NCBI GenBank assembly: GCA_020630395.1
Contig: JAHDBM010000024.1
Span: 1 to 32,510 of the forward strand
Direction: 5' to 3'
DNA from: Flavobacteriales bacterium
GTDB lineage: Bacteria; Bacteroidota; Bacteroidia; Flavobacteriales_D; CAJJDF01
DNA length: 32,510 nucleotides
Shown: positions 1,796 through 31,153 of the stretch, in pieces
Layout of the letters: each line of letters begins with the position of its first letter
Numbering within the stretch: the stretch's first letter is position 1
Position numbers and translations under genes: made by a program
Notes under the pieces: model-generated
Told to the model about the DNA's origin: nothing
Seen by the model: only the letters and a program-made list of their open reading frames with translations
Database searches by the model: none

Positions 1796-3943
1796 TACTA
1801 AAAAAGTAACATCATCAGTACTTCCAGGACAAGCTCCATTAGCTGAAACTGTTAACCTTACAGTTACACTTGTTTGAACAATAATATTAGCAGGGGTATA
1901 AGTTGTTCCTGATATTGATCCTCCTCCACTTATTATACTCCATGTGCCTGAACCAGATCCAAAAGCACTAAGTGATTTTGTTTGATTTTCACATATTGTT
2001 GCTGTTGATGTTGTATTTATTAATGTGTTAGTATTATTAACTGTAAACACTCTATCACTAGTAGTTGCAGGACAAGCTCCATTAGTTGGTATGGTATATC
2101 TTATCCTTACAGTTGTATTACTTGCAACATTTTGAGGTGTATAGGTTGTTCCAGATATAGAACCTCCTCCAGTTACTATACTCCAAGTTCCTCCACTTGG
2201 ACTACCTACTAATGTTTTGGTTCCTGTTTCACATATTGCCGCAGTACTAGTTGTATTATTTGCTATATTTCTAACATTTACTGTAAATGTACGATCACTT
2301 GTATTCCCACATCCATCTGTATACCTTATCGTTACTGTTGTATTAACACTTACATTATTAGGCGTATAGGTTGTTCCTGATATAGAACCACCTCCTGTTA
2401 CTATACTCCATGTTCCTCCTGTTGTACTAGAGGTTAATGTCTTCGTCTGATTCTCACATATAGAGGCTGTACTTGTTGTGTTGGTTCCAGAAATACATAA
2501 GGAATAATGAGCTATAAATGAATCATCCCCATAAGTTCCTTCAACATGCTGCTGAGTAGATGGGTTATTGTAATCCAAATTAACATAAGAACTAAATTGA
2601 ATACCAAAATAAACCCCTCCATTATTATCTGTATCAAAACTAGGATAATAATTAACCCCTCCATATTTTGCTAAAAACTCACACGAAACATATGTCTGAG
2701 ATGGTGTCCATTCTAAAAATAAATGAGGTGCAGAGCCAGTATACAATATTGTTTTATTCTGAGTTCCTACGCCTGGATCATAATCAATTCCTGTACCAGC
2801 ATACCTAGGTACCATTACTAAATTACCACCAACAATTTCAATTGGAACATAACTACCTGTTGCACCAGGAATAGTATCTGCCCAATATGCTGCCATGGTA
2901 TTTTTGTTATATCTAACTATCGCGACATTCGCAGAACCTCCATCACTTACATTTGCAGTACCTCCAGTAGGATCAAAATCAATTGTACCATTAAATTGAG
3001 TTGTGAAATACAAATCATTTCCGTCTAATTCAATATCATAAGCTCTTTCATAACTGGCACTACCAAAACCAAACGCATATCCATAAGCACCAGTAGCACA
3101 TGAATATCTTGCTATATATGCATCAGTATTTCCAACTGATGTAAGATTTGCAACACCTCCATCAGGGTTAAAATCTACTGTATTTACAAAGCCTCCACTT
3201 ATGTATACATGCGTACCATCAGTTTCTATATCATATTGTTCTTGAAAACCAGAGCTTCCCATTGTTTTTACCCAAACGGCAGTTGGTGAAGCTCCAGAAA
3301 CATTATATCTTGCTAGAAACAAATCATAATTACCAGATGCAGTTCTGTTAACAACTCCAGGACCTGGATCTAAATCTTGAGTACCAGTAAATCTTCCAAG
3401 CATATACAAGTTTCCGCTAGCATCAAGTGTAATCATATCCTCAGTGTTTTGATTAGAATAACAACCTGAATATGTACTAAGCCAACTTTGAGTACCTGTT
3501 GAAGTGTAACGAGCTAAAAACAGTCCTAATCCTCCATCATACATACTTCCTGCAACATACACATTACCGGATGCGTCTACTGCTAAACTTGTGCCTCTAT
3601 CGTTACTAGTACCTCCATTTACAGGATTATCGATTCTCCTTACCCATAGAAAAGCGCCAGTAGAACTGTATTTTGCAATATAAGGATCTTCAGAGGGTGT
3701 TCCTCCTACAGAAGTTATATCACCACCTGGACCACTAACATTAAAATCAACTTGACCCCTAAAGACACCTGTAATGTAAATATTACCACTGGGATCTGAT
3801 TCCAGATCATGTATGTGTATATCATTTAAAAAGTATGATCCACTTATTTGGTCTTGATGAACAGACCAATCTAAATTTGGTTGTGAAAATGAATAAACTG
3901 AAAAAATAAATACAAGTATTGATAAAATTGCCGTGTGTTTCAT
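1..3943 (-). CDS. Giant secreted beta-propeller/Ig-like repeat protein, 3' end beyond window
   Basis: An uninterrupted frame runs from ATG at 3943 to the left edge, giving about 1314 residues without a stop. Residues 1-20 form a signal peptide (MKHTAILSILVFIF..., ending near SFSQ). Residues about 30-480 contain seven spaced blade motifs such as SGNIYITG, SGNVYVAG, SGNLYMLG, HVYISGG and NDLYFTT, often followed by an acidic D-x-DP turn, as in SBBP-type seven-bladed propellers. From about residue 485 follow Ig/PKD-like repeats: three of about 78-80 residues (ICENQTKTL...GGSISGTTYTP) and then eight of about 77-78 residues (MCVGSNR...TVQYSVTNACGT), the last cut by the edge. The second type carries two conserved cysteines each. 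Such proteins in Bacteroidota are commonly type IX secretion cargo acting at the cell surface; the sorting domain would lie outside the window. Adhesin or gliding-related function is inference. Confidence 0.88.
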   Translation of the reverse strand, partial: MKHTAILSILVFIFSVYSFSQPNLDWSVHQDQISGSYFLNDIHIHDLESDPSGNIYITGVFRGQVDFNVSGPGGDITSVGGTPSEDPYIAKYSSTGAFLWVRRIDNPVNGGTSNDRGTSLAVDASGNVYVAGSMYDGGLGLFLARYTSTGTQSWLSTYSGCYSNQNTEDMITLDASGNLYMLGRFTGTQDLDPGPGVVNRTASGNYDLFLARYNVSGASPTAVWVKTMGSSGFQEQYDIETDGTHVYISGGFVNTVDFNPDGGVANLTSVGNTDAYIARYSCATGAYGYAFGFGSASYERAYDIELDGNDLYFTTQFNGTIDFDPTGGTANVSDGGSANVAIVRYNKNTMAAYWADTIPGATGSYVPIEIVGGNLVMVPRYAGTGIDYDPGVGTQNKTILYTGSAPHLFLEWTPSQTYVSCEFLAKYGGVNYYPSFDTDNNGGVYFGIQFSSYVNLDYNNPSTQQHVEGTYGDDSFIAHYSLCISGTNTTSTASICENQTKTLTSSTTGGTWSIVTGGGSISGTTYTPNNVSVNTTVTIRYTDGCGNTSDRTFTVNVRNIANNTTSTAAICETGTKTLVGSPSGGTWSIVTGGGSISGTTYTPQNVASNTTVRIRYTIPTNGACPATTSDRVFTVNNTNTLINTTSTATICENQTKSLSAFGSGSGTWSIISGGGSISGTTYTPANIIVQTSVTVRLTVSANGACPGSTDDVTFLVDPIATPSITSSSANMCTGTTRTLTATPAGGIFTITSGGAFANITGGNQLNATNAGTINVRYTITNACGTQTANQSITIVAPLSANITSSNGNMCNGGTRSLTGTPAGGTWSVVSGPGNITGGNTLNATGTGTIQVQYSVTNACGTYGNFQNITVEDAPSPNITSSSADICIGSSRALTATPSGGVWSITGGTGSANIVGNTFTATAAGTVNIRYRVTNACGNVDATQTITVVGALSPSITSSGADMCVGSNRLLSGTPSGGTWSITAGTGFGNISGGNQLNATAAGNITVQYSVTNACGTYTTTQTITVVGTLSPAITSSGAGLCIGSNRALTGTPSGGTWSITAGSGFGNISGGNVLNATAAGNITVQYSVTNACGTYTTTQTITVEGTLSPAITNSGADMCVGNTRLLTGTPIGGSWSITSGGGFGNISGGNQLNATSPGNITVQYSVTNACGTYNTTQTITVVGTLTPVITSSNADMCVSDTRTLTGTPSGGTWSITAGGGFANITSGNQLNATATGTITVQYSVTNACGTYTTTQNINIVSAVTPSITSSTANMCVGDKRQLSASPTGGNWTILSGPGTLGVGDTLTATGAGTI
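1796..2490 (-). repeat. Three tandem Ig-like type A coding repeats
   Basis: Three consecutive units encode a second repeat family with the pattern TTSTAxICExxTKTL, then GGTWSIVTGGGSISGTTYTP, then TTVxIRYT and GACPxTT. They share the GGTWSI core with the type B units but differ in their second half, so they are a related, older or separately amplified subfamily placed between the propeller and the type B stack. Confidence 0.75.
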
Positions 3944-4061
3944 TCTGTATATAATTTTAATCATTTAAATATACGAGTAATCTTTAATAATTTCATCAGG
4001 AAATAAACATAACAGATAGAATGCAAAAAAATCATATTGAAATGCAAAAAACCAGTATTTG

Positions 4062-6164
4062 TTATGCAATTCTCCCCCAATTAGGTGATTTTTTAACGAG
4101 AAGTGCCATATACTTTCGCATCATTAAATGACTAGGATGTTCTAAATTTGGATCGTCTTTAAGTATTTCTAACGCTTTGTTTCTTGCAGCTGTAAGTACA
4201 ATTTGATCTTTAGCTAAATCAGCTATTTTTAAATCTAACACACCACTTTGCTGTGTACCCAATAAATCTCCTGGACCTCTTAATTTTAAATCTACTTCAG
4301 CAATTTCGAACCCATCATTAGTTCGAACCATTGTTTCTATTCTCGTTTTAGCATCATGAGATAATTTAAAATCTGTCATCAATACACAATACGATTGGCT
4401 TGCTCCTCTTCCTACTCTTCCTCTTAATTGATGCAATTGTGAAAGCCCAAACTTGTTAGCACTCTCAATTATCATAACTGAAGCATTTGGCACGTTAACT
4501 CCTACTTCAATAACAGTTGTCGCTACTAAAATTTGAGTTTCTCCTTTTGCAAAGCGATTCATCTCATGCTCTTTGTCTTTTGGCTTCATTTTACCATGAA
4601 CGACACTTATTTTATATTTTGGAAGTGGGAATCTTCTTGACAAACTCTCATAACCATCCATTAAATCCTTAAAATCTAATTTTTCTGATTCTTCTATTAA
4701 TGGATAAACAACATAAATTTGTCTTCCTTCCTTAATTTGTTTATCAATAAATCCAAAAACAGATGACCTATTGGAATCATATTTATGTACTGTTTTAATT
4801 GGTTTTCTACCTGGAGGCAACTCATCTATAACCGAAATATCTAAATCTCCATAGAGTGTCATAGCTAGTGTTCTAGGAATTGGTGTTGCCGTCATTACCA
4901 ACACATGAGGTGGCAATATGTTTTTTTTCCATAACCGTGCTCTTTGTTTTACACCAAATCTATGTTGCTCATCAATAACTGCTAATCCAAGGTTTTTAAA
5001 TTTCACTGGATCTTCCAATAAGGCATGGGTACCTATTAATATATGTAATGCCCCAGAAGCTAATTTTTCATGAATAATTGATCGTTCGCTTTTCTTGGTT
5101 GATCCAGTCAAAAGCATGACTTGAATATCCATTTCCTGTAAAAATTCACAAATTGTGTGATAATGTTGAATGGCTAAAATTTCGGTTGGAGCCATTAAAC
5201 ATGCTTGATAATCATTATCTATTGCCAACAGCATGGATAATAAAGCCACCAGGGTTTTTCCACTTCCAACATCTCCCTGTAACAACCTATTCATTTGCTT
5301 TCCAGAACCTAAATCTCGTCTAATTTCTTTGATTACTCTTTTTTGAGCATTGGTTAATTGGAATGGTATATACTCTTTGAAAAAGGTATTAAACGTTACT
5401 CCTACTTCGTTAAAATTATGCCCTCTTATTTTTTCTTCTTTTATTAGTTTTTGTTTGATGAGCCTTAACTGTAGAAAAATAAATTCTTCGAATTTTAATC
5501 TAAAAATCGCTTTCTTTAGTGTATTGTAATCTTGAGGTTGATGTGCGTTAATTATGGCATGCTCCCTTGAAAGTAAATTTAAATCTGTTAGAATATCTTT
5601 AGCTAAATTTTCAGGGACTTGTCTTGATAGTTGAGCCACCAAAAATTTAATTACTTTTTCTATTCCTTTACTATTTAATCCTCCATTTGAAGCTTTTTCT
5701 GTAGTATGATATACAGGCTGTAAAGTTACATTTGATGTTTTAATGACTGAGAATTCTTCAAAATCGGGATGAGCAATGTTATATTTTGTTTTATATCGGG
5801 TTGGCTTTCCAAAAAACACAAATTCTTTGCCTATTGTAAGCTTTGGCTTTATCCATTTAACACCTTTAAACCATATTAACTCCATCATACCAGAGCTATC
5901 TTCTATCGTTACTGATAATCTTTTGGCTCTTCCTGTTCCAATTTCTTTAACGTTGTTAACAATTGCCTTAATCTGCACATAAACCTCATCAGAATTTACT
6001 TCGTTTATCTTTGTTATTTTAGATTTATCTACATAACGAAAAGGAAAATGATGTAATAATTGCTCTACTGTATAAATACCAAATTCTTTATTAAAAAGTT
6101 CTCCTTTTTTAGGTCCAACTCCTTTAACAAATTCAATTGATGTAGAAAGCAAACTAGGTTTCAT
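4062..6164 (-). CDS. recG: ATP-dependent DNA helicase RecG
   Basis: A 700-residue superfamily 2 helicase that remodels stalled replication forks and Holliday junctions. The N-terminal wedge/OB region (about 1-150) is followed by Walker A GDVGSGKT at 297-304, the DEQH box at 398-401, TATP at 425-428 and motif VI QLRGRVGR at 579-586. The C-terminal LRGPGDLLGTQQSG signature is diagnostic of RecG. Length is normal for the family. It lies downstream of the ompH pair, separated by a terminator at 6305-6328, so it probably has its own promoter in 6165-6300, although I could not find a canonical TAnnTTTG there. Cytoplasmic. Nothing odd in the sequence. Confidence 0.97.
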   Translation of the reverse strand: MKPSLLSTSIEFVKGVGPKKGELFNKEFGIYTVEQLLHHFPFRYVDKSKITKINEVNSDEVYVQIKAIVNNVKEIGTGRAKRLSVTIEDSSGMMELIWFKGVKWIKPKLTIGKEFVFFGKPTRYKTKYNIAHPDFEEFSVIKTSNVTLQPVYHTTEKASNGGLNSKGIEKVIKFLVAQLSRQVPENLAKDILTDLNLLSREHAIINAHQPQDYNTLKKAIFRLKFEEFIFLQLRLIKQKLIKEEKIRGHNFNEVGVTFNTFFKEYIPFQLTNAQKRVIKEIRRDLGSGKQMNRLLQGDVGSGKTLVALLSMLLAIDNDYQACLMAPTEILAIQHYHTICEFLQEMDIQVMLLTGSTKKSERSIIHEKLASGALHILIGTHALLEDPVKFKNLGLAVIDEQHRFGVKQRARLWKKNILPPHVLVMTATPIPRTLAMTLYGDLDISVIDELPPGRKPIKTVHKYDSNRSSVFGFIDKQIKEGRQIYVVYPLIEESEKLDFKDLMDGYESLSRRFPLPKYKISVVHGKMKPKDKEHEMNRFAKGETQILVATTVIEVGVNVPNASVMIIESANKFGLSQLHQLRGRVGRGASQSYCVLMTDFKLSHDAKTRIETMVRTNDGFEIAEVDLKLRGPGDLLGTQQSGVLDLKIADLAKDQIVLTAARNKALEILKDDPNLEHPSHLMMRKYMALLVKKSPNWGRIA

Positions 6165-7557: not shown

Positions 7558-10122
7558 TTATAGTTCTCCAATATTCATGCCAATTGTAAAATGAAATTCT
7601 CCTTGAGGTCTAAATACAGACTTCTCATGTAAGCTAGGTATATAACCAGAGTCTCCTGGTGAAAGTGGATCTAAGCCCCATCCATAATCTAATCCTATTA
7701 AACCAAACATAGGCAAGAATAAACGCAATCCCATACCGGCAGATTTCTTAACTTGAAAAGGGTTAAACTCACTATAAGAGTTCCATGAATTACCTGCTTC
7801 TGCAAATCCTAACACAAACACTGTTGCATTTGGATTAAGTGATACTGGGAATCTTAGCTCTGCTTTATATTTTACAAGTAATGCATCCCCTTCATCAGGA
7901 GAGATAGAATTATCTCCATATCCTCTCAGTGCAATATATTCACGACCTGCTAAACGGAAACCTGTTAATCCGCTACCTCCATAATAGAATCTTTCAAAAG
8001 GTGACACACCTTTTTCTCTACTCCAAGAGTTTAATAATCCAAATCCAGCACTTGTATGCAGTACCATTTTGTTTTTACCTTTTGTTAATGGTGTGTACCA
8101 ATTGGTAACAAATTTAATCTTATTATACTCTACCCATTTAAATTTTTCTTGATTAGTAAGACCGGAATAATCATCAATCCCATCAAACCAAGAATATGGA
8201 GCAGTAGCTTTTAAGGTTAAACTTATATTTGACCCTCCTGTTGGATATATTGGTGTACCATCCAATGAGTTTCTAGATAAAACAACTTTAGCACTTAGGT
8301 TGTTTGCAAATCCGTTTTGAAAATCTTCAACAAAATTATAATTACGTAAGGTATAATATTCATAGCCAATCTCTCCATATAATGTGAAGTAATCATCTGG
8401 CACTTTTAGTCGAGTTCCTAGACCAACTGATGTACCTAATACATCAAAAATTGGTGTTTCTGGATCACTTCTTTTACCTTGTCTAAGCTTTTGTAAACTG
8501 TAATATGCATTAAAACTGAAATTTGTAGGTCTTTTTCCTCCAAACCAAGGCTCAGAAAACGTAAAACTTAAGGATTGGAAGAATAAATTAGCCGATCCTC
8601 TTAAACTTAATGTTTGTCCATCACCAGCAGGAATTGGGTTCCAAGATTCTTTCTTTAGCAAATTTTTAGAACTGAAGTTTGTAAATCTTAATCCAAGAGA
8701 ACCAACAAACTGGCCGCCACCCCAACCTCCAGAAAGTTCAATTTGATCGGATGGTTTTTCTGCAACTTTATATTCTATATCCACAGTACCATCAGCTGGA
8801 TTTGGCTTAGGGTTAACTCCCATTGCTTGAGGGTCGAAATAACCTAACTGCGCTAATTCTCTTTGTGTTCTAATAATATCACTACGGTTAAATAACTCTC
8901 CTGGTTTTGTTCTTATTTCTCGTAAAATTACATGATCGTTCGTTTTTGTATTGCCAACCACAGTAATTTTATTATTGGTAGCTTGCTTCCCTTCGTAAAC
9001 AAAGATATCAATATCTATCGTGTCATTATTAATGTTCTTTTCAACAGGATTTACTTGAAAAAATAAGTATCCTTGATCCATGTATAACGAACTAATGTCT
9101 AACTCTGTTTGACTCATAAATAACATAGACTCTAACCTTGTTCTATTATATAAATCGCCCTTTTTAATCCCTAAAATAGTATCTAATTGTCCTGATCTAT
9201 ATTTACTGTTACCTACCCAATTAATGTCTCCAAAATAATATCGAGAACCTTCATCCATCACTAATTTGATATCGATACCTTCTTTTTTATTCATTACGGT
9301 ATCAAAACTAATTCTTGCATCTCTTAACGCTTCGCCATTATATTTAGCTATTAACTCTTGTTTACCCTCGTTATATTTTTCTTTAATAAATTTAGATCTC
9401 TTCCAAATTCTCCACCATCTTTTTTCTTTAACGTCTTTAAATTGTCTTTTAACACGGGCATCTGAGAATAATTTCTTTTCTTTTCCAAAAATCCTCATAA
9501 ATCCTTTTCGCTCCACCATCATATCATTACCCTCGACAACAATTTTATTAATTTTAATTCTTTCTCCTTTGTTAATTTTTATGGTTAATACTGATGCATT
9601 ATTTACTCCAGTATCAACTTTTTGTTCTAATCTTACTTTTGCATTTAAATAACCTTTTTCTACAAAATAATCTTTACATACGAATCTTGTCCTATCTAAT
9701 AATGCTTCTGTAATTACTTTTCCGCTATATAAGTCTAAACTCTCTCTTATAGTCTTAGCCTGAGATTTAGTTGCTCCAATAATTTTATACTTCGACAAAC
9801 GACTTCTTTCTTTTAAAGAAATTCTTAAGAATATGGTACTTCCAATAATTTTCTCTTTGTATATATTAATATCTGAAAATAAATTTTGATCCCACAACTT
9901 CCTAATTGCCTGTGTAATATCATCTCCAGGAACAGTAACTTTATTTCCTCTCTTTAAACCTGATAAAGAAATAACTCGTTCGGTATCGTAATTTACAACA
10001 CCATCTACTGTTATTCCTCCAATTTCATAATCTCTTGGAGTTTCATAATTAACCGCTCCTGTTTGGCCATAAATTAAGCCTGAAACTAGGACTAAGATTA
10101 ATATTGTAAATAAGTTCTTCAT
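7558..10122 (-). CDS. bamA: Outer-membrane assembly factor BamA
   Basis: An 854-residue Omp85 protein that inserts beta-barrel proteins into the outer membrane. Signal peptide MKNLFTILILVLVSGLIYGQ is followed by POTRA domains up to about residue 460 (IGGITVDGVVNYDTERVISL begins POTRA1; NKITVVGNTKTNDHVILREI begins the last). The 16-strand barrel region starts near IELSGGWGGGQFVGSLGL. The conserved barrel-lid tripeptide appears as RGY at 733-735. A Lys/Arg/Trp-rich insert in the third POTRA (KEKRWWRIWKRSKFIKEKY, about residues 230-250) is frequent in Bacteroidota BamA. The C terminus ends MNIGEL rather than with an aromatic residue, a small departure from the beta-signal, which may instead lie a few residues earlier (FHFTIG). 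It starts 9 bp after uppS, so the two are co-transcribed. Confidence 0.97.
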   Translation of the reverse strand: MKNLFTILILVLVSGLIYGQTGAVNYETPRDYEIGGITVDGVVNYDTERVISLSGLKRGNKVTVPGDDITQAIRKLWDQNLFSDINIYKEKIIGSTIFLRISLKERSRLSKYKIIGATKSQAKTIRESLDLYSGKVITEALLDRTRFVCKDYFVEKGYLNAKVRLEQKVDTGVNNASVLTIKINKGERIKINKIVVEGNDMMVERKGFMRIFGKEKKLFSDARVKRQFKDVKEKRWWRIWKRSKFIKEKYNEGKQELIAKYNGEALRDARISFDTVMNKKEGIDIKLVMDEGSRYYFGDINWVGNSKYRSGQLDTILGIKKGDLYNRTRLESMLFMSQTELDISSLYMDQGYLFFQVNPVEKNINNDTIDIDIFVYEGKQATNNKITVVGNTKTNDHVILREIRTKPGELFNRSDIIRTQRELAQLGYFDPQAMGVNPKPNPADGTVDIEYKVAEKPSDQIELSGGWGGGQFVGSLGLRFTNFSSKNLLKKESWNPIPAGDGQTLSLRGSANLFFQSLSFTFSEPWFGGKRPTNFSFNAYYSLQKLRQGKRSDPETPIFDVLGTSVGLGTRLKVPDDYFTLYGEIGYEYYTLRNYNFVEDFQNGFANNLSAKVVLSRNSLDGTPIYPTGGSNISLTLKATAPYSWFDGIDDYSGLTNQEKFKWVEYNKIKFVTNWYTPLTKGKNKMVLHTSAGFGLLNSWSREKGVSPFERFYYGGSGLTGFRLAGREYIALRGYGDNSISPDEGDALLVKYKAELRFPVSLNPNATVFVLGFAEAGNSWNSYSEFNPFQVKKSAGMGLRLFLPMFGLIGLDYGWGLDPLSPGDSGYIPSLHEKSVFRPQGEFHFTIGMNIGEL

Positions 10123-11308: not shown

Positions 11309-12838
11309 CTAATCATTATTAAACAACAATGAATCTCCTGTCATTTCTATTGGTTTTTTGATATCCATAATATCTAAAATAGTTGGAGCAACATCTGCTA
11401 ATGAACCATCATTTAAATTCTTTTTGACTGTATTTAAAGCGAAACAAGGTACTAAATTAGTAGTATGAGCAGTATGGATTGATCCATCAGGATTGATGTT
11501 TAATTCGGCATTACCATGATCGGCAATTATGACGATACCATAATTATGCGCCAATGCTGTTTCAACAACACTTTGTGCCGAAGCATCTATCGTTTCAATA
11601 GCTTTAATAATAGCCAACTGGTCTCCAGTATGTCCTACCATATCTGGGTTAGCAAAGTTTAAACAAACAAAATCGGGCTGATTATGATTTATCTCTTCAT
11701 TAATCTTATCAACTACTTCATTTGCACTCATTTCTGGTTGCAAATCGTAAGTTGCTACTTTTGGAGAGTTTACCACTATTCTTTTATCTTGTTTAAATGG
11801 CTGTTCCCTTCCTCCAGAAAAGAAAAATGTAACATGAGGGTATTTTTCGGTTTCAGCAATTCTAACTTGACTTTTCCCTGCATTACTAACTACCTCACCT
11901 AATGTCATTTTTAAATCATCTTTCTCATACAAGACATTAACATTAACAAAGCTTTTATTATAGTTTGTCATAGTAACATAATGCAATGGCAAAGTATTCA
12001 TTCCATGACGTTTTAAATCTTCTTGAGTTAAAGCAATTGTTATTTGGCGACATCTATCTGTTCTAAAATTAAAGCAAATCACTACATCATGTTCTTGAAT
12101 TTTAGCTATTGGATTACCCTGTTCGTCTACACAAACAAGAGCTTCCATGAATTCATCAGTAATGTCTTGATTGTATAAATCTTGAATACTTTTTAACGCA
12201 TCAGTTGTTTTTATACCAACTCCATTAACTAACAAATCATACGCTTTTTTAATTCTTTCCCATCTATTATCTCTGTCCATTGCATAATAGCGACCAATTA
12301 CAGAAGCTAGTTGAACTGGTGTATCGTTAATGTTTTCTTTTACAAATTCTATTGAAGATTTACCGCTAGTTGGAGCTGTATCTCTTCCATCAGTAAAGGC
12401 ATGTATAAATGCTTTATTAAGGCCATAATCATTAGCTGCTTTACATAAACTAACTAAATGATTCTGATGAGCATGTATTCCTCCATCAGAAACTAACCCA
12501 ATAAAATGAACGGTTTTATTGTTCTTTTTTGCGTAATCAAAAGCTTCTAGAAGTTTTGGGTTTGATGCAAACTCATTATCATCTATTGCTTTGTTTATTT
12601 TAGCGAAGTCTTGATACACTATTCTACCCGCTCCAATATTTAAGTGACCAACTTCAGAGTTTCCCATTTGACCTTTTGGAAGACCAACATGTTCGCCAAA
12701 TGTTTTTAATTCTGAATTAGGATATTGTTTGTAGAGGCTATCTACGAAAGATGTTCTGGCCAGATGAATTGCATTGGTTTCGTCTTTTTTTCCATGACCC
12801 CACCCATCAAGAATCATGAGCATTGCTTTTTGCTCCAT
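11309..12838 (-). CDS. gpmI: 2,3-bisphosphoglycerate-independent phosphoglycerate mutase
   Basis: A 509-residue, two-metal (Mn2+) enzyme of the alkaline phosphatase superfamily interconverting 3- and 2-phosphoglycerate in glycolysis. Metal ligand Asp11 lies in MLMILDGWGHG; the phosphorylated Ser61 lies in MGNSEVGHLNIGAGR; further blocks are HAFTDGRDTAP, FNFRTDRCRQ, FANPDMVGHTGD and IIADHGNAE near the C terminus, all present. Length is as expected. It is the last gene of the five-gene operon beginning at 17436 and starts 3 bp after the upstream membrane-protein gene, so translation may be coupled. Cytoplasmic. Confidence 0.97.
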   Translation of the reverse strand: MEQKAMLMILDGWGHGKKDETNAIHLARTSFVDSLYKQYPNSELKTFGEHVGLPKGQMGNSEVGHLNIGAGRIVYQDFAKINKAIDDNEFASNPKLLEAFDYAKKNNKTVHFIGLVSDGGIHAHQNHLVSLCKAANDYGLNKAFIHAFTDGRDTAPTSGKSSIEFVKENINDTPVQLASVIGRYYAMDRDNRWERIKKAYDLLVNGVGIKTTDALKSIQDLYNQDITDEFMEALVCVDEQGNPIAKIQEHDVVICFNFRTDRCRQITIALTQEDLKRHGMNTLPLHYVTMTNYNKSFVNVNVLYEKDDLKMTLGEVVSNAGKSQVRIAETEKYPHVTFFFSGGREQPFKQDKRIVVNSPKVATYDLQPEMSANEVVDKINEEINHNQPDFVCLNFANPDMVGHTGDQLAIIKAIETIDASAQSVVETALAHNYGIVIIADHGNAELNINPDGSIHTAHTTNLVPCFALNTVKKNLNDGSLADVAPTILDIMDIKKPIEMTGDSLLFNND

Positions 12839-25137: not shown

Positions 25138-27924
25138 ATGGCTGAAGAAAAAAAACTATTTCTACTTGATGCTTACGCATTAATATATCGTTCTTATTAC
25201 GCATTTATTAAAAATCCTAGAGTTAATTCTAAAGGATTAAATACATCTGCCATATTTGGTTTTACAACCACCATGTTAGATGTAATAAAAAATCAAAAAC
25301 CCACACATCTTGCAGTTTGTTTTGATTATCCTGCAGCTACCCTTCGTCAGCAAGATTTTACTGCTTACAAAGCCAACAGACAAGAAACACCAGATGACAT
25401 TAAAAAATCTATTCCTATTATAATGGATATCGTTAAAGCGTTTAATATTCCTATTTTAATGAAAGAGGGATATGAAGCTGATGATGTAATTGGAACAATA
25501 GCAAAAAAAGCTGAGCAAGAAGGTTTTAAAACCTTCATGATGACCCCTGATAAGGATTTTGGTCAATTGGTAAGTGAAAATATATTTATGTATCGACCAG
25601 GAAGAGGGGGGAAACCTGCAGAAACATGGGGAATACCTGAAATATGTGAAAAATTTGAAGTAGAACATCCTTTACAAGTAATTGATATTTTAGGCTTATG
25701 GGGAGATGCGGTTGATAATATACCGGGCATACCTGGTATTGGAGAAAAAACATCTAAAAAATTAATTGCTAAATACGGAAGTATTGAAAATTTAATTGCC
25801 AATACAGATGATTTAAAAGGAAAGCAAAAAGAAAACGTAATTAATTTTGCCGAACAAGGTTTACTATCGAAACAATTAGCTACGATAATTCTGGATGTAG
25901 ATGTTCCCTTTGAAGAAGAAAATTTAATCATTTCTGAACCAAATCAAGATAAGGTAATAGAAATTTTTAGCGAATTAGAATTTAGAACTTTAGCTCAAAG
26001 GGCCTTTGGAGTTACCATTCAAAGTACAGCACCATCAACTAACGGTCAATTAGATATTTTTGGAGGTGGTGCATCCCAACAAGAAGAAGAAACAGTAACA
26101 CCTACCGAATTTAAAACCATTGAAACAACTGAACATACTTATCATTTAGTGAATAATGATAAAGCAATAGATGATTTAATTTTGATTTTATCTAAACAGC
26201 CTTCTTTCTGTTTTGATACAGAGACAACCGGATTAGATCCTCTATTGGCTAAAATAGTAGGGATGTCCTTTTCTTTTAAGAAAGGTGAAGCCTATTATGT
26301 ACCAGTATCTCAAGATGAGAAAGAAGCTATGTCATTAATGAGCAAGTTTAAATCTCTTTTCGAAAATGAAGCAATCGAAAAAGTTGCGCATAACATCAAG
26401 TATGATTTAGCTATTTTAAAGAATTATGAAATTAATACCAAAGGGCATTTCTTTGATACTATGATCGCTCATTATCTTATTAAACCAGATATGAGGCATA
26501 ATATGGATATATTGGCTGAGACTTATTTAGGTTATACGCCAATATCTATTGAAAGTATTATAGGTAAAAAAGGAAAAAACCAGCTAAACATGGCTGATCT
26601 TGAACCAGAAAAGGTAGTAGATTATGCAAGTGAGGATGCTGACATTACCTGGCAACTAAAAGAAGTTTTCGACAAACAAGTAAAAGAATCTCATTTATCT
26701 TCTATATATAACGATATCGAATTTCCATTAGTAAATGTGCTAGAAAAAATGGAACGAGAGGGTGTATTTCTTGATAAAGAAGCTTTAGCTATTTTTTCTA
26801 AAGAATTAGAAAACGACTTAGCAAGCTATCAAGCTAAGATTTTTGAACTATCTGGAGAGGAGTTTAATATCGATAGTCCAAGGCAATTGGGAGAAGTACT
26901 ATTTGATAAGATGGTCATCTCTACTAAAGCGAAAAAGACCAAAACCGGACAATATTCTACCAATGAAGAAACGTTAGTTAAGCTTCAAGATAAACATGAA
27001 ATTATAGGGGTAATACTTGATTATCGATCTACTAAAAAATTAAAATCTACTTATGTAGATGCTTTACCTTTATTAATTAACGAAAAAACAGGTAGGCTAC
27101 ACACCAACTACATGCAAACTGTTGCGGCAACTGGTCGATTAAGCTCGGTTAATCCTAACCTACAAAACATTCCTATTAGAACAGAGAAAGGAAGAGCTAT
27201 ACGTAAAGCGTTTATCCCAAAAGATGAAAACCACACCTTACTAGCTGCTGATTATTCTCAAATTGAGTTACGTATTATTGCCGCACTTAGTGAAGATGCT
27301 GATATGATAGAAGCTTTTAAAACTGGAACTGATATTCACTCGGTTACTGCCTCTAAGGTATTTGGTGTTGACTTAAGAGATGTAGACCGTGACATGCGTA
27401 GCAAAGCAAAAATGGTGAATTTTGGAATCATATACGGCATCTCTGCATTTGGATTAAGCCAAAGGTTATCGATACCAAGAAAAGAAGCTAAAACTATTAT
27501 TGACAATTATTTTGCTCAATACAGCAAAGTAAAGGAGTATATGGATAATGCAATTCTTGTTGCTCGTGAAAAAGGATACGTAGAAACCTTATTGGGAAGA
27601 AGAAGAAACTTAAAGGACATTAATTCTCCTAATGCGATTGTAAGAGGACATGCAGAGCGTAATGCTATTAATGCTCCTATACAAGGAACTGCTGCTGATA
27701 TTATTAAAATAGCCATGATTAATATTGATCGTGTGTTTACAGAGAAAAACATACAATCTAAAATGATTTTGCAAGTACATGATGAACTTGTATTTGATGT
27801 ATTAAAAACTGAAGTTGACCAGGTACAAGAGATTGTACAACACGAAATGGAAAATGCGGTTAATATTGCTGTACCATTAACTGTTGAGTATAGCACAGGT
27901 GAAAATTGGCTGGAAGCGCATTGA
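25138..27924 (+). CDS. polA: DNA polymerase I
   Basis: A 928-residue enzyme for Okazaki-fragment maturation and repair. Residues 1-300 are the 5'-3' FEN-like exonuclease (LFLLDAYALIYRSYYAF, EADDVIG, TPDKDFGQL, WGDAVDNIPGIPGIGEKT). Residues about 340-530 are a 3'-5' exonuclease with intact acidic residues: FDTETTGLD (Asp360), HNIKYDLAIL and YASEDADITW, so proofreading is expected. The polymerase domain holds motif A DYSQIELR (Asp705), motif B RSKAKMVNFGIIYG and motif C QVHDELVFD (Asp882). Length is as in E. coli. Co-transcribed with rsmA. Confidence 0.98.
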   Translation: MAEEKKLFLLDAYALIYRSYYAFIKNPRVNSKGLNTSAIFGFTTTMLDVIKNQKPTHLAVCFDYPAATLRQQDFTAYKANRQETPDDIKKSIPIIMDIVKAFNIPILMKEGYEADDVIGTIAKKAEQEGFKTFMMTPDKDFGQLVSENIFMYRPGRGGKPAETWGIPEICEKFEVEHPLQVIDILGLWGDAVDNIPGIPGIGEKTSKKLIAKYGSIENLIANTDDLKGKQKENVINFAEQGLLSKQLATIILDVDVPFEEENLIISEPNQDKVIEIFSELEFRTLAQRAFGVTIQSTAPSTNGQLDIFGGGASQQEEETVTPTEFKTIETTEHTYHLVNNDKAIDDLILILSKQPSFCFDTETTGLDPLLAKIVGMSFSFKKGEAYYVPVSQDEKEAMSLMSKFKSLFENEAIEKVAHNIKYDLAILKNYEINTKGHFFDTMIAHYLIKPDMRHNMDILAETYLGYTPISIESIIGKKGKNQLNMADLEPEKVVDYASEDADITWQLKEVFDKQVKESHLSSIYNDIEFPLVNVLEKMEREGVFLDKEALAIFSKELENDLASYQAKIFELSGEEFNIDSPRQLGEVLFDKMVISTKAKKTKTGQYSTNEETLVKLQDKHEIIGVILDYRSTKKLKSTYVDALPLLINEKTGRLHTNYMQTVAATGRLSSVNPNLQNIPIRTEKGRAIRKAFIPKDENHTLLAADYSQIELRIIAALSEDADMIEAFKTGTDIHSVTASKVFGVDLRDVDRDMRSKAKMVNFGIIYGISAFGLSQRLSIPRKEAKTIIDNYFAQYSKVKEYMDNAILVAREKGYVETLLGRRRNLKDINSPNAIVRGHAERNAINAPIQGTAADIIKIAMINIDRVFTEKNIQSKMILQVHDELVFDVLKTEVDQVQEIVQHEMENAVNIAVPLTVEYSTGENWLEAH

Positions 27925-27986: not shown

Positions 27987-28493
27987 ATGACTAAACTAGA
28001 AGACATAATAGACCATATTCCATATCACAATGAAATTGAATCGTTTAATTATGATTTAGTTGTTGATTGGGCAATAAACCTTATAAAAAACAATCAAGAA
28101 TCGGAAAATATTTTTATGCTAACATCTTTCACTAAGCCAGTTGACTCTCAAGAAATAAAGCCTTTTTTAAGTTTAGTTCTTGAAGATTTAGATATTGAAG
28201 AAAAAAAAGGAAAAGAGGCTACACTAAATCTTATAAAATATTATCTATTAAAAGTAATTGAATTACCATCAGAAGACACTCTTAATCCACTATATAAATT
28301 GTTTCTAGAAAGAGATGGATTTGGCTCTGATCCTTTCGAGTTGTCTTATTTTTATTTTTTATATCATTCTTATGGTGAGATAAAGGAATTTAATAACTGT
28401 TATTACATAGAAGATGTTAGTCCAGCTAGCATTGATCTTGTTTCAAGAGAAAAGGCAAGACACTGGCTTGCAAACTTTAGAAATATTTTATGA
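27987..28493 (+). CDS. Unknown 168-residue acidic helical protein
   Basis: Not recognised. No signal peptide or transmembrane helix; strongly acidic, mostly helical in appearance. The stretch ESENIFMLTSFTKPVDSQEI (about 38-57) recalls short helical modules seen in Bacteroidota immunity-like proteins, but this is weak. Its C terminus is YIEDVSPASIDLVSREKARH followed by WLANF. It begins 62 bp after polA in a gap with TTAGATTGTTAGATTTT and a GATAAT/ATTATC dyad. Its stop overlaps by ATGA with the start of a truncated globin copy (28490-28567), which is the notable feature of its context. Confidence 0.75.
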   Translation: MTKLEDIIDHIPYHNEIESFNYDLVVDWAINLIKNNQESENIFMLTSFTKPVDSQEIKPFLSLVLEDLDIEEKKGKEATLNLIKYYLLKVIELPSEDTLNPLYKLFLERDGFGSDPFELSYFYFLYHSYGEIKEFNNCYYIEDVSPASIDLVSREKARHWLANFRNIL

Positions 28494-28567
28494 AAGACAT
28501 AAAAACAAAAGAAGACATTAAACTTATGGTGAATACCTTTTACGAAAAGGTTAACCAAGACAAATAA
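28490..28567 (+). pseudogene. Remnant of a globin gene 5' end (25 codons)
   Basis: ATG at 28490 opens a 25-codon frame ending TAA at 28565-28567. It matches the first 25 codons of the intact globin at 28817: 20 of 25 residues agree (e.g. EDIKLMV and FYEKVNQD are shared) and 64 of 78 bases agree. After the stop the similarity fades quickly. Several differences are silent, so the copies have diverged as coding DNA or come from different lineages. Its ATG overlaps the stop of the 168-residue gene (ATGA), the same junction that the intact globin shows with its own upstream neighbour. It is taken as a leftover of an insertion or recombination event rather than a functional peptide. Confidence 0.8.
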
Positions 28568-28616
28568 ATACTTACATTAAACTGATTACGTTTTCCAAAA
28601 TTTAATATTAATAGGC

Positions 28617-28820
28617 ATGGAAGATATGGGAAATATAATATGGGGTATACTTGAAGGGCTACACAATATAATTGGAGGGAATATCAGATGGTTTATTTTT
28701 AAAAACAAATCCAGAAAAGAATATAAAAGTCAATTTGTATTAAATTTAATAGTTACACTTTCTCTTCTGTTTATAGTAGCATATATTATTATACTAATTG
28801 CTGATAAAGTTAATTCATGA
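28617..28820 (+). CDS. Small single-pass membrane protein, inserted before globin
   Basis: A 67-residue protein with an amphipathic N-terminal half (GNIIWGILEGLHNIIGGNIR), a basic middle (FKNKSRKEYKSQ) and one transmembrane helix (about 42-62, LNLIVTLSLLFIVAYIIILI). ATG at 28617 and at 28626 are both possible starts. Its stop overlaps the globin start (ATGA at 28817-28820), so translation is probably coupled. The function is unknown; proteins of this look occur in Bacteroidota as orphan small membrane proteins. Together with the upstream globin remnant it looks like cargo brought in ahead of the globin gene. Confidence 0.7.
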   Translation: MEDMGNIIWGILEGLHNIIGGNIRWFIFKNKSRKEYKSQFVLNLIVTLSLLFIVAYIIILIADKVNS

Positions 28821-29179
28821 AAGACATCCAAACTCCAGAAGACATTAAACTAATGGTTGATAGGTTTTACGAAAAGGTTAACCAGGATGAATTATTGTCT
28901 AATATTTTTAACGATTTTGCTAGAATAGATTGGGATGCTCATTTACCAAGAATGTATAATTTTTGGAATACTGTTTTGCTCTCTAAAGGGGATTATAAAG
29001 GGAGTCCGTTCCAAAAGCATGTTCCACTTCCCATTAATAGCGAACACTTTGAAAGATGGCTATCCCTTTTTCACTCCAATATAGATGAACATTTTAAAGG
29101 TTTGGTTGCAGAAGATGCAAAAAAAGTTGCCTCCACAATCGGGGCAACTTTTCAAGCTAAGCTTAAACATATGAGGTGA
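28817..29179 (+). CDS. Group III truncated haemoglobin
   Basis: A 120-residue globin with the 2-on-2 truncated fold. Blocks fit group III: IKLMVDRFYEKVNQDELLSN in helices A-B, LPRMYNFWNTVLL in the B-C/E region, then PFQKHVPLPINSEHFERW with His77 as the likely proximal haem ligand and His68 nearby, and a closing helix DAKKVASTIGATFQAKLKHM. Members bind haem and O2/NO and are thought to act in nitrosative or redox chemistry; the exact role is uncertain. Translation is coupled to the small membrane protein by an ATGA overlap. A diverged copy of its first 25 codons lies 327 bp upstream. Confidence 0.92.
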   Translation: MKDIQTPEDIKLMVDRFYEKVNQDELLSNIFNDFARIDWDAHLPRMYNFWNTVLLSKGDYKGSPFQKHVPLPINSEHFERWLSLFHSNIDEHFKGLVAEDAKKVASTIGATFQAKLKHMR

Positions 29180-29227: not shown

Positions 29228-30058
29228 ATGAAACCCTATATAATCAGCATATTAATTTTAATACCGTTCATCAATTTTTCACAGGACACTATAACCAAAT
29301 CTAAAAATATTAAAATAAGTACTGTCGCAGAATTAGGTTTTCTTGGTGTTCTAGATCATAAAATTCAATTTAGTCAAAACGGTACTTATTTTGATTATGT
29401 TAAAGATGGCGGACAAGATGTTGTTTTTCCTATAAGCCGATTATCAACAGAACTAGAATGGAATAAACAAAATACAGTATACTTCCTTTATCAACCTCTT
29501 CGAATAGAATCTCAAGTATTGTTAAAAGAAGATTTATTAGTAGATAGCTTAACTTTTCCTGCATCAACTAAACTAAATTTATTATATAATTTTCCCTTTT
29601 ATAGAATAAGTTATACCAGAGAGTTGATAAAAAACGTGAATAAATTTTCGTTTCAGTTAGGAGGTAGTATACAATTAAGAAATGCTACCATAAATTTTGA
29701 ATCTGGTGACGGTAGTCTTTTTAGAACAAACCGTGACATTGGTATTGTTCCTGCTTTAAAAATCAAAACTACGTACTTTGTAAATGAATTCGTTTATACA
29801 GAATTAGAAGCAGATGGTATTTACGCCCCTGTAAGCTATTTAAATGGAAGTGATAATGAAGTTGTAGGCGCTATTTTAGACGCAAGTATTCGAACAGGTT
29901 TAAATATTAATCAAAACCTCAGCTCATTTTTTAATCTTCGTTATTTAGGTGGTGGAGCGGTTGGAACCTCTGAAAATGATCCCGGACCTGGTGATGGCTA
30001 CGTTAGAAACTGGTTAAACTTTTTAACGGTTTCGATTGGAGCTAAGTATAGTTGGTAA
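29228..30058 (+). CDS. Predicted outer-membrane beta-barrel protein
   Basis: A 276-residue protein with signal peptide MKPYIISILILIPFINFSQ. The mature part alternates polar and hydrophobic residues in strand-like segments (e.g. RISYTRELIKNVNKFSFQLG, TGLNINQNLSSFFNLRYLGG) and ends TVSIGAKYSW, a C-terminal aromatic of the kind recognised by BamA. An insert EVVGAILDASIR and a GTSENDPGPGDGY loop suggest external loops. No enzymatic motif. It may be a porin-like or hypothetical barrel; the ligand is unknown. Converges with the barrel gene at 30116-30655. Confidence 0.8.
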   Translation: MKPYIISILILIPFINFSQDTITKSKNIKISTVAELGFLGVLDHKIQFSQNGTYFDYVKDGGQDVVFPISRLSTELEWNKQNTVYFLYQPLRIESQVLLKEDLLVDSLTFPASTKLNLLYNFPFYRISYTRELIKNVNKFSFQLGGSIQLRNATINFESGDGSLFRTNRDIGIVPALKIKTTYFVNEFVYTELEADGIYAPVSYLNGSDNEVVGAILDASIRTGLNINQNLSSFFNLRYLGGGAVGTSENDPGPGDGYVRNWLNFLTVSIGAKYSW

Positions 30059-30115: not shown

Positions 30116-30655
30116 TTAGTTAAACGTAAAACCAACTGATAAAAAAGCACGAAAACCAATTTGGTCAGGTCCGTAATCATTTACTTTAGCTGATAACTTA
30201 AAAGTCCAAATATTGTTGTTTTCTTTTCTAACAGCTAATCCGCTTGACAACAATAAAGACTGTCCGGATGTTTCAGTTGCCTTATGAAAATCCACTCCAT
30301 ATCTTAATCCTAATACGGGAGATATTTTGTCTTTGTAAGGAATTACTTGGAAATCTAAGAAAACAGGAATATTTCTTTCTCCAAAAGAATTTTCTAAACC
30401 AATTCCGGCCCCAACACATACAACATCTTTAATGTTAACACCATTCACAATATCAACTCCTACATTTATAGCAGGGTAAATAAGTATAAATTCCATACCT
30501 AAATATCCATTTACATTACTATACATGCTATAAGTTGACCTTTCCTTCTTAGTGTTTAAATCATTAGAGTTATTAGTAGTAGTTTGAGCAAAAGAATGAT
30601 TGTTTACAGTGAAAAAACTAGTAACTGATAATATTAATATTTTTATACCTTTCAT
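30116..30655 (-). CDS. Small outer-membrane beta-barrel protein
   Basis: With ATG at 30655 the protein has 179 residues: signal peptide MKGIKILILSVTSFFTVNNH ending near SFAQ, a Thr/Asn/Ser-rich linker, then strands such as GYLGMEFILIYPAINVGVDI, ISPVLGLRYGVDF and FRAFLSVGFTFN with a terminal aromatic two from the end. A longer frame up to 30745 adds 30 residues without signal-peptide character, so the downstream Met is preferred. Membership of a specific family is not clear. Divergent from the DUF1456 gene by about 100 bp. Confidence 0.78.
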   Translation of the reverse strand: MKGIKILILSVTSFFTVNNHSFAQTTTNNSNDLNTKKERSTYSMYSNVNGYLGMEFILIYPAINVGVDIVNGVNIKDVVCVGAGIGLENSFGERNIPVFLDFQVIPYKDKISPVLGLRYGVDFHKATETSGQSLLLSSGLAVRKENNNIWTFKLSAKVNDYGPDQIGFRAFLSVGFTFN

Positions 30656-30757
30656 TTTTGAATATTTAAAATTACAAATTGAGATGTTCAAATAGTCTGC
30701 CAAAGTAATGAAAAGAGTTAAAAAGGACGTATATTTATAAAACAATTCAAAGTAATT

Positions 30758-31153
30758 ATGACCAATAACGATATTTTCAAAAAATTACGAGTAGCCCTTA
30801 AAATGAAGGACACTGATATACTAGAAGTGTTAAAGCTTGTTGATTTTAAAATATCTAAGAGTGAGTTGGGTGCTATTTTCCAAGCGGAAGACCATCCTAA
30901 CTATCGTCCTTGCGGAGATCAATTATTGCGTAATTTTTTAAATGGTCTTATTATCCACAAAAGAGGTGTTAGACCAAGAAAAGGAGAGGAACAAAACAGT
31001 AATAAAAAACACGAAAGCCCTAATAAATCTTTTAACAAAAAAACTTCCTCAAAATCTTCATTTAAAAAGAAAGATTACAATAAAAGTGATGATTTAATAA
31101 AGGTTTATAAAGATGATGGTGATAAACCTTTTAAGAGACGAAAGAAGAATTAA
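30758..31153 (+). CDS. Half-length DUF1456 (YehS-like) protein with basic tail
   Basis: A 131-residue protein. Residues 1-72 form one DUF1456 unit: NNDIFKKLRVALKMKDTDIL, FKISKSELGAIFQAEDHPNY and CGDQLLRNFLNGLI. By comparison with E. coli YehS, which has two such units, this one aligns with the second. The remainder (73-131) is a low-complexity Lys/Ser/Asn/Asp tail (KKTSSKSSFKKKDYNKSDD and similar), likely disordered and possibly nucleic-acid binding. Function of DUF1456 is unknown. It converges with the M15 gene and overlaps its 3' end by 4 bp. Confidence 0.85.
   Translation: MTNNDIFKKLRVALKMKDTDILEVLKLVDFKISKSELGAIFQAEDHPNYRPCGDQLLRNFLNGLIIHKRGVRPRKGEEQNSNKKHESPNKSFNKKTSSKSSFKKKDYNKSDDLIKVYKDDGDKPFKRRKKN

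Follow-up and report, generated by a model that had tools for sequence, protein, structure and literature searches.

The interval between the genes for DNA polymerase I and a truncated-haemoglobin-type globin in a 32,510-nucleotide stretch of Flavobacteriales DNA (the window, i.e., the whole stretch that was analysed) holds two small accessory genes and, between them, a truncated second copy of the globin start. On balance, we read this interval as a recombination scar, probably left by a two-step process in which one gene was inserted and another was imported by means of one homologous and one illegitimate joint.

The duplicated globin start and its surroundings

The globin start at 28817–28894 recurs at 28490–28567 with 64 of 78 bases identical, which bears out the recurrence pointed to in the earlier note on this DNA; the runner-up match anywhere in the window reaches 39/78, and shuffling the upstream 2 kb 200 times gave at most 41/78. 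The same pair is recovered by blastn, which aligns 28484–28560 with 28811–28887 (83% identity, E = 5.6e-16). The similarity sets in exactly at the ATG and drops to background level past about base 72, that is, after codon 24. The fragment proper (28490–28561, + strand) hence comprises 24 codons, with 60 of its 72 bases identical to the globin start, followed by AAA TAA; its frame reads MKDIKTKEDIKLMVNTFYEKVNQDK, then TAA. It is succeeded by a spacer of 55 bases (28562–28616, + strand) with 20% G+C, in which alignment to the rest of the globin detected no remnant of that gene, 285 of 300 shuffles aligning equally well. A direct repeat of the globin start flanks the 255-bp segment 28562–28816.

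Both copies overlap the preceding gene in the same way, as had also been noted before: The 168-aa ORF ends at 28493, with the ATG of the fragment at 28490, and the 67-aa ORF ends at 28820, with the ATG of the globin at 28817, each pair being joined in an ATGA. Because 11 of the 244 pairs of same-strand neighbours in the sampled stretches of the window's genome have such a 4-bp overlap, a single junction of this kind is unremarkable and two consecutive ones are mildly unusual.

The left flank of the locus is polA (25138–27924, + strand), encoding the 928-aa DNA polymerase I and 79% identical to the polA of the one genus-mate available for comparison (G001, locus L007). The intact globin (28817–29179, + strand; 120 aa) matches the Pfam family Bac_globin with an E-value of 4.1e-8, exceeding the family cut-off, and is 70% identical to the globin of the genus-mate. 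Two genes for proteins with unassigned families, of 276 aa (29228–30058, + strand) and 209 aa (30116–30745, − strand), separate it from the right flank, a DUF1456 gene (30758–31153, + strand; PF07308, E 4.7e-31), and are absent from that position in the genus-mate. No toxin, effector or secretion gene was recognised at the polA–globin locus.

The cargo genes

The first cargo gene (27987–28493, + strand), which is missing in the genus-mate, encodes a 168-aa, apparently all-helical immunity-type protein resembling DUF2247/Imm38; its TGA stop lies inside the ATGA of the fragment. DUF2247 corresponds to Imm38, an immunity family of polymorphic toxin systems that has been reported in heterogeneous polyimmunity loci and paired with toxin domains of the Ntox19 and HNH nuclease types (PMC3482391). 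The likeness to these proteins consists in a match to PF10004 over residues 18–105 (E 2.5e-4) and in a mostly helical make-up, the AlphaFold2 model having nine helices and no strand at a mean pLDDT of 78, i.e., a mostly alpha-helical fold. The differences are that the match scores 21.2 bits against a curated cut-off of 25, which leaves the protein below the score for membership in DUF2247, and that no toxin partner was recognised nearby, neither a polyimmunity locus nor a polymorphic toxin adjoining the gene in the window. A search of solved structures with the model gave no match below E 0.001. Going by the family resemblance, the protein would likely serve to neutralise a toxin of competing bacteria, and the likeness that the earlier note drew to arrays of immunity-type or cargo genes finds support, by way of this weak match, in one of the two cargo genes.

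Imm38-like relatives occur in four other genomes out of 299 in the order, and a profile search of the class found them in four other genomes out of 295, as well as one further copy in the genome of the window itself; none was found in viral contigs. Such a rare and patchy spread is consistent with that of mobile genes. Some have small neighbours that are immunity-like or uncharacterised, in that one relative adjoins a gene for a SUKH-1 domain (L119) and another a DUF6193/DUF6585 pair (L116), while those of three other genomes (L042, L044 and L118) sit between direct repeats of 197 to ~430 bp. Between its direct repeats, the L042 gene is accompanied by an apparent HigB–HigA toxin–antitoxin pair.

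The second cargo gene (28617–28820, + strand) encodes a 67-aa protein with one likely membrane span, as read from the sequence, and its stop is located inside the ATGA of the globin. It has no convincing relatives, the search returning just two matches (E 0.003–0.009) to parts of longer frames. Both cargo genes are richer in A+T than their surroundings, with 28% G+C in the first and 25.5% in the second vs 32% for the whole window.

Origin of the arrangement

In the genus-mate, polA ends at 4967 and the ATG of its only globin copy lies at 4995, leaving a gap of 27 bp that harbours neither cargo nor fragment, and the globin stop overlaps the start of the DUF1456 gene by ATGA. Given this order of genes in the genus-mate, it was probably within the window's lineage that the interval became filled, and the earlier proposal that a gene was inserted upstream of the globin is probably right, the cargo being there in the window and missing in its relative. 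Since polA was not seen adjoining the globin in more distant relatives, in the stretches fetched, the ancestral state is taken from one genome, and the cargo-free state of the genus-mate could be a secondary loss. The other globin loci that were compared contain none of the 168-aa, 67-aa, 276-aa and 209-aa genes.

We infer the direction of change (insertion, not loss), the order of events, the donor and the recombination route as follows. In the ancestor the globin would have stood close behind polA, and the Imm38-like immunity-type gene would have entered just ahead of the globin start, its stop coming to lie within the globin's ATGA. In a later step, a related lineage may have contributed DNA that carried the small membrane-protein gene likewise fused to its own globin start; this DNA would have paired with the recipient via the globin body, while its other side joined illegitimately near globin codon 24. 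The outcome would be that the 72-base globin start of the recipient was left as a stump and that an intact, probably chimeric globin came to stand beyond the new gene. The anatomy fits a homologous anchor combined with an illegitimate joint, and the sharp break past codon 24 together with a spacer free of globin remnants speaks for it; no donor sequence was found, and with one genus-mate for comparison, at 70% globin protein identity, the donor lineage is not seen. A ComEC-type competence gene is present in the window's genome, and lends weak support to import because 10 of the 14 controls have one as well.

The divergence of the two copies bears on this. Out of 72 sites, the fragment and the intact copy differ at 12, the intact copy and the genus-mate at 18, and the fragment and the genus-mate at 15, so that the divergence between the two copies (17%) amounts to two thirds of that to the genus-mate. 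Third codon positions account for 7 of the 12 differences (binomial p 0.066; not significant), and in the three-way comparison with the genus-mate the fragment has one unique site and the intact copy four (p 0.19; not significant). A freely decaying stump should be the faster of the two copies; as the fragment is not, the pattern mildly favours the joining of two alleles that had diverged earlier, under selection, over the decay of a local duplicate. The comparison with globin orthologues put forward in the earlier note, made here with one genus-mate, hence leans mildly towards its idea of import from a related lineage, although import is unproved at these counts and the sites are too few to decide. 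Mosaicism is not visible along the globin when the window is compared with the genus-mate, and is not demonstrated, because the 5′ end of the gene is no more different than the remainder.

Because the site counts are small, two other origins have to be weighed alongside the recombination scar. In one, the membrane-protein gene would have entered as the segment 28562–28816 and doubled a 72-bp target, the copies of which then diverged. The direct repeat around that segment has exactly the geometry of such an event, described for restriction-modification genes (PMC3154945, PMC4978471), and the genus-mate, at its 70% globin identity, offers an empty site with a single target copy. We nevertheless regard it as unlikely, in that the copies are already so far apart, measured against the genus-mate, and the stump shows no excess of changes. 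We hold it equally doubtful that the stump is what a tandem second globin left behind after losing ~95 codons from its end. Such a history would yield diverged copies with a past under selection, matching the data, and some relatives do carry two or three globins; however, in the multi-copy genomes with listed copies the globins are either spread over different contigs or separated by at least 58 kb and in no case tandem, the spacer retains nothing of a globin, and the genus-mate has a single one.

Two further readings are far less probable. That the ORF of 25 codons functions as a leader or coupling peptide maintaining the translation of the downstream genes might be suggested by its preserved open frame and its ATGA overlap with the preceding gene; yet 49 bp lie between its stop and the next start, relatives have no counterpart, and 24 stop-free codons are uninformative, all of which makes this reading very improbable. 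An assembly artefact might be suspected in a draft genome of 138 contigs that elsewhere contains scaffold gaps with duplicated 55-bp ends, but at 82% identity the copies here are not the same, and no run of N interrupts the stretch, which renders the chance of an artefact negligible.

The scar reading has parallels in known systems. Minimal mobile elements of Neisseria consist of different small genes that take the place between a pair of conserved genes and are moved through the homology of the flanks. The globin locus is similar in that small genes fill the interval between conserved genes; unlike it, that model is not known to include a gene-end duplication, and our comparison is with one genus-mate, not with strains. 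Another parallel is the sequential displacement of orphan immunity genes in the type VI secretion (T6SS) arrays of Vibrio cholerae, for which homology-facilitated illegitimate recombination has been proposed (PMC5361080): There, as here, an immunity-type gene is accompanied by a truncated fragment of a neighbouring gene, and one homologous anchor with one illegitimate end would explain the globin locus too. The differences are that no toxin, effector or secretion gene was recognised next to the globin, which itself is the anchor, and that the cargo is found on its upstream side. For Helicobacter pylori restriction-modification genes, insertion with long target duplication has been reported (Nobusato 2000, cited in PMC3154945 and PMC4978471); this shares with our locus an accessory gene between direct repeats derived from the target, unlike which our locus is not one of restriction-modification, has diverged copies, and has its empty site only from a genus-mate.

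If the interval is a recombination scar, it would be the footprint of a process that places small accessory genes, of which one is immunity-like here, beside housekeeping genes without a recognisable mobile element and without damage to the neighbour. Being one case, it contributes an instance from outside toxin loci to a kind of event already known; it would gain in importance if a survey found the stops of cargo genes repeatedly falling in the starts of host genes.

Gene-end duplications at other loci

A second globin 5′ fragment was found in none of 35 other globin loci, most of which were covered for at least 1.5 kb upstream and a few of which were shortened by contig ends. The variable numbers of such fragments that the earlier note expected among relatives were thus not encountered, and its proposal that the globin start is a recurrent insertion hot spot finds no support, both on account of these loci and because other gene-end duplications exist elsewhere in the genome. 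Stretches amounting to ~540 kb of the window's genome contain two of these, similar in size and divergence to the globin case. The first (L052), on the same contig ~3.2–4.0 kb past the right end of the window, is a 116-bp, 79% identical promoter-and-start repeat (3301–3416 and 4035–4149) placed around a 206-aa gene and upstream of a gene for a SIMPL-domain protein, which has no match in the genus-mate. In the other (L071, C19 of the window's genome), the final codons of a gene for a 478-aa protein recur together with the terminator as a 129-bp, 88% identical repeat (2540–2668 and 4111–4239); the extra copy follows an unrelated gene of 229 aa and precedes the gene whose end it duplicates.

In a more distant relative (L049), the 5′ end of a gene for 151 aa recurs as a 92-bp stretch (9435–9525 and 12426–12517) 3 kb downstream, which stops after ~17 codons; an Imm38-like gene and one of 594 aa lie in between. 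These three loci point to gene-end stumps as something that recombination leaves behind in general, not specifically at the globin. A 400-kb sample of the genus-mate yielded no stump of the globin kind; its repeats lie inside paralogous genes, and a palindromic one surrounds a gene that is presumably DUF559-like. A bolder version would have the group importing small immunity-type genes as modules whose end falls exactly on a host gene's ATGA and which bring along its 5′ end as a homology arm, making host starts reusable docking points, a generalisation that we consider very improbable.

The second Imm38-like gene of the window's genome, together with a 134-aa gene, is preceded by a repeat of another kind (L121, C97): Its 150-bp copies (8340–8489 and 8903–9051) have the ends TTCTCGATAC and GTATCGAGAA and, as single-stranded DNA, form a strong hairpin (z −3.5 to −7.6). 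An identification of this repeat as an integron attC site was set aside, its ends being at odds with the attC core. Other parts of the genome contain ends related to those of the repeat, and for TATCGAGAA the window has three occurrences vs 0.16 expected. The window also has, at 1–2482, a tandem array of ~234-bp units that is probably a piece of the gene for a long repetitive surface protein.
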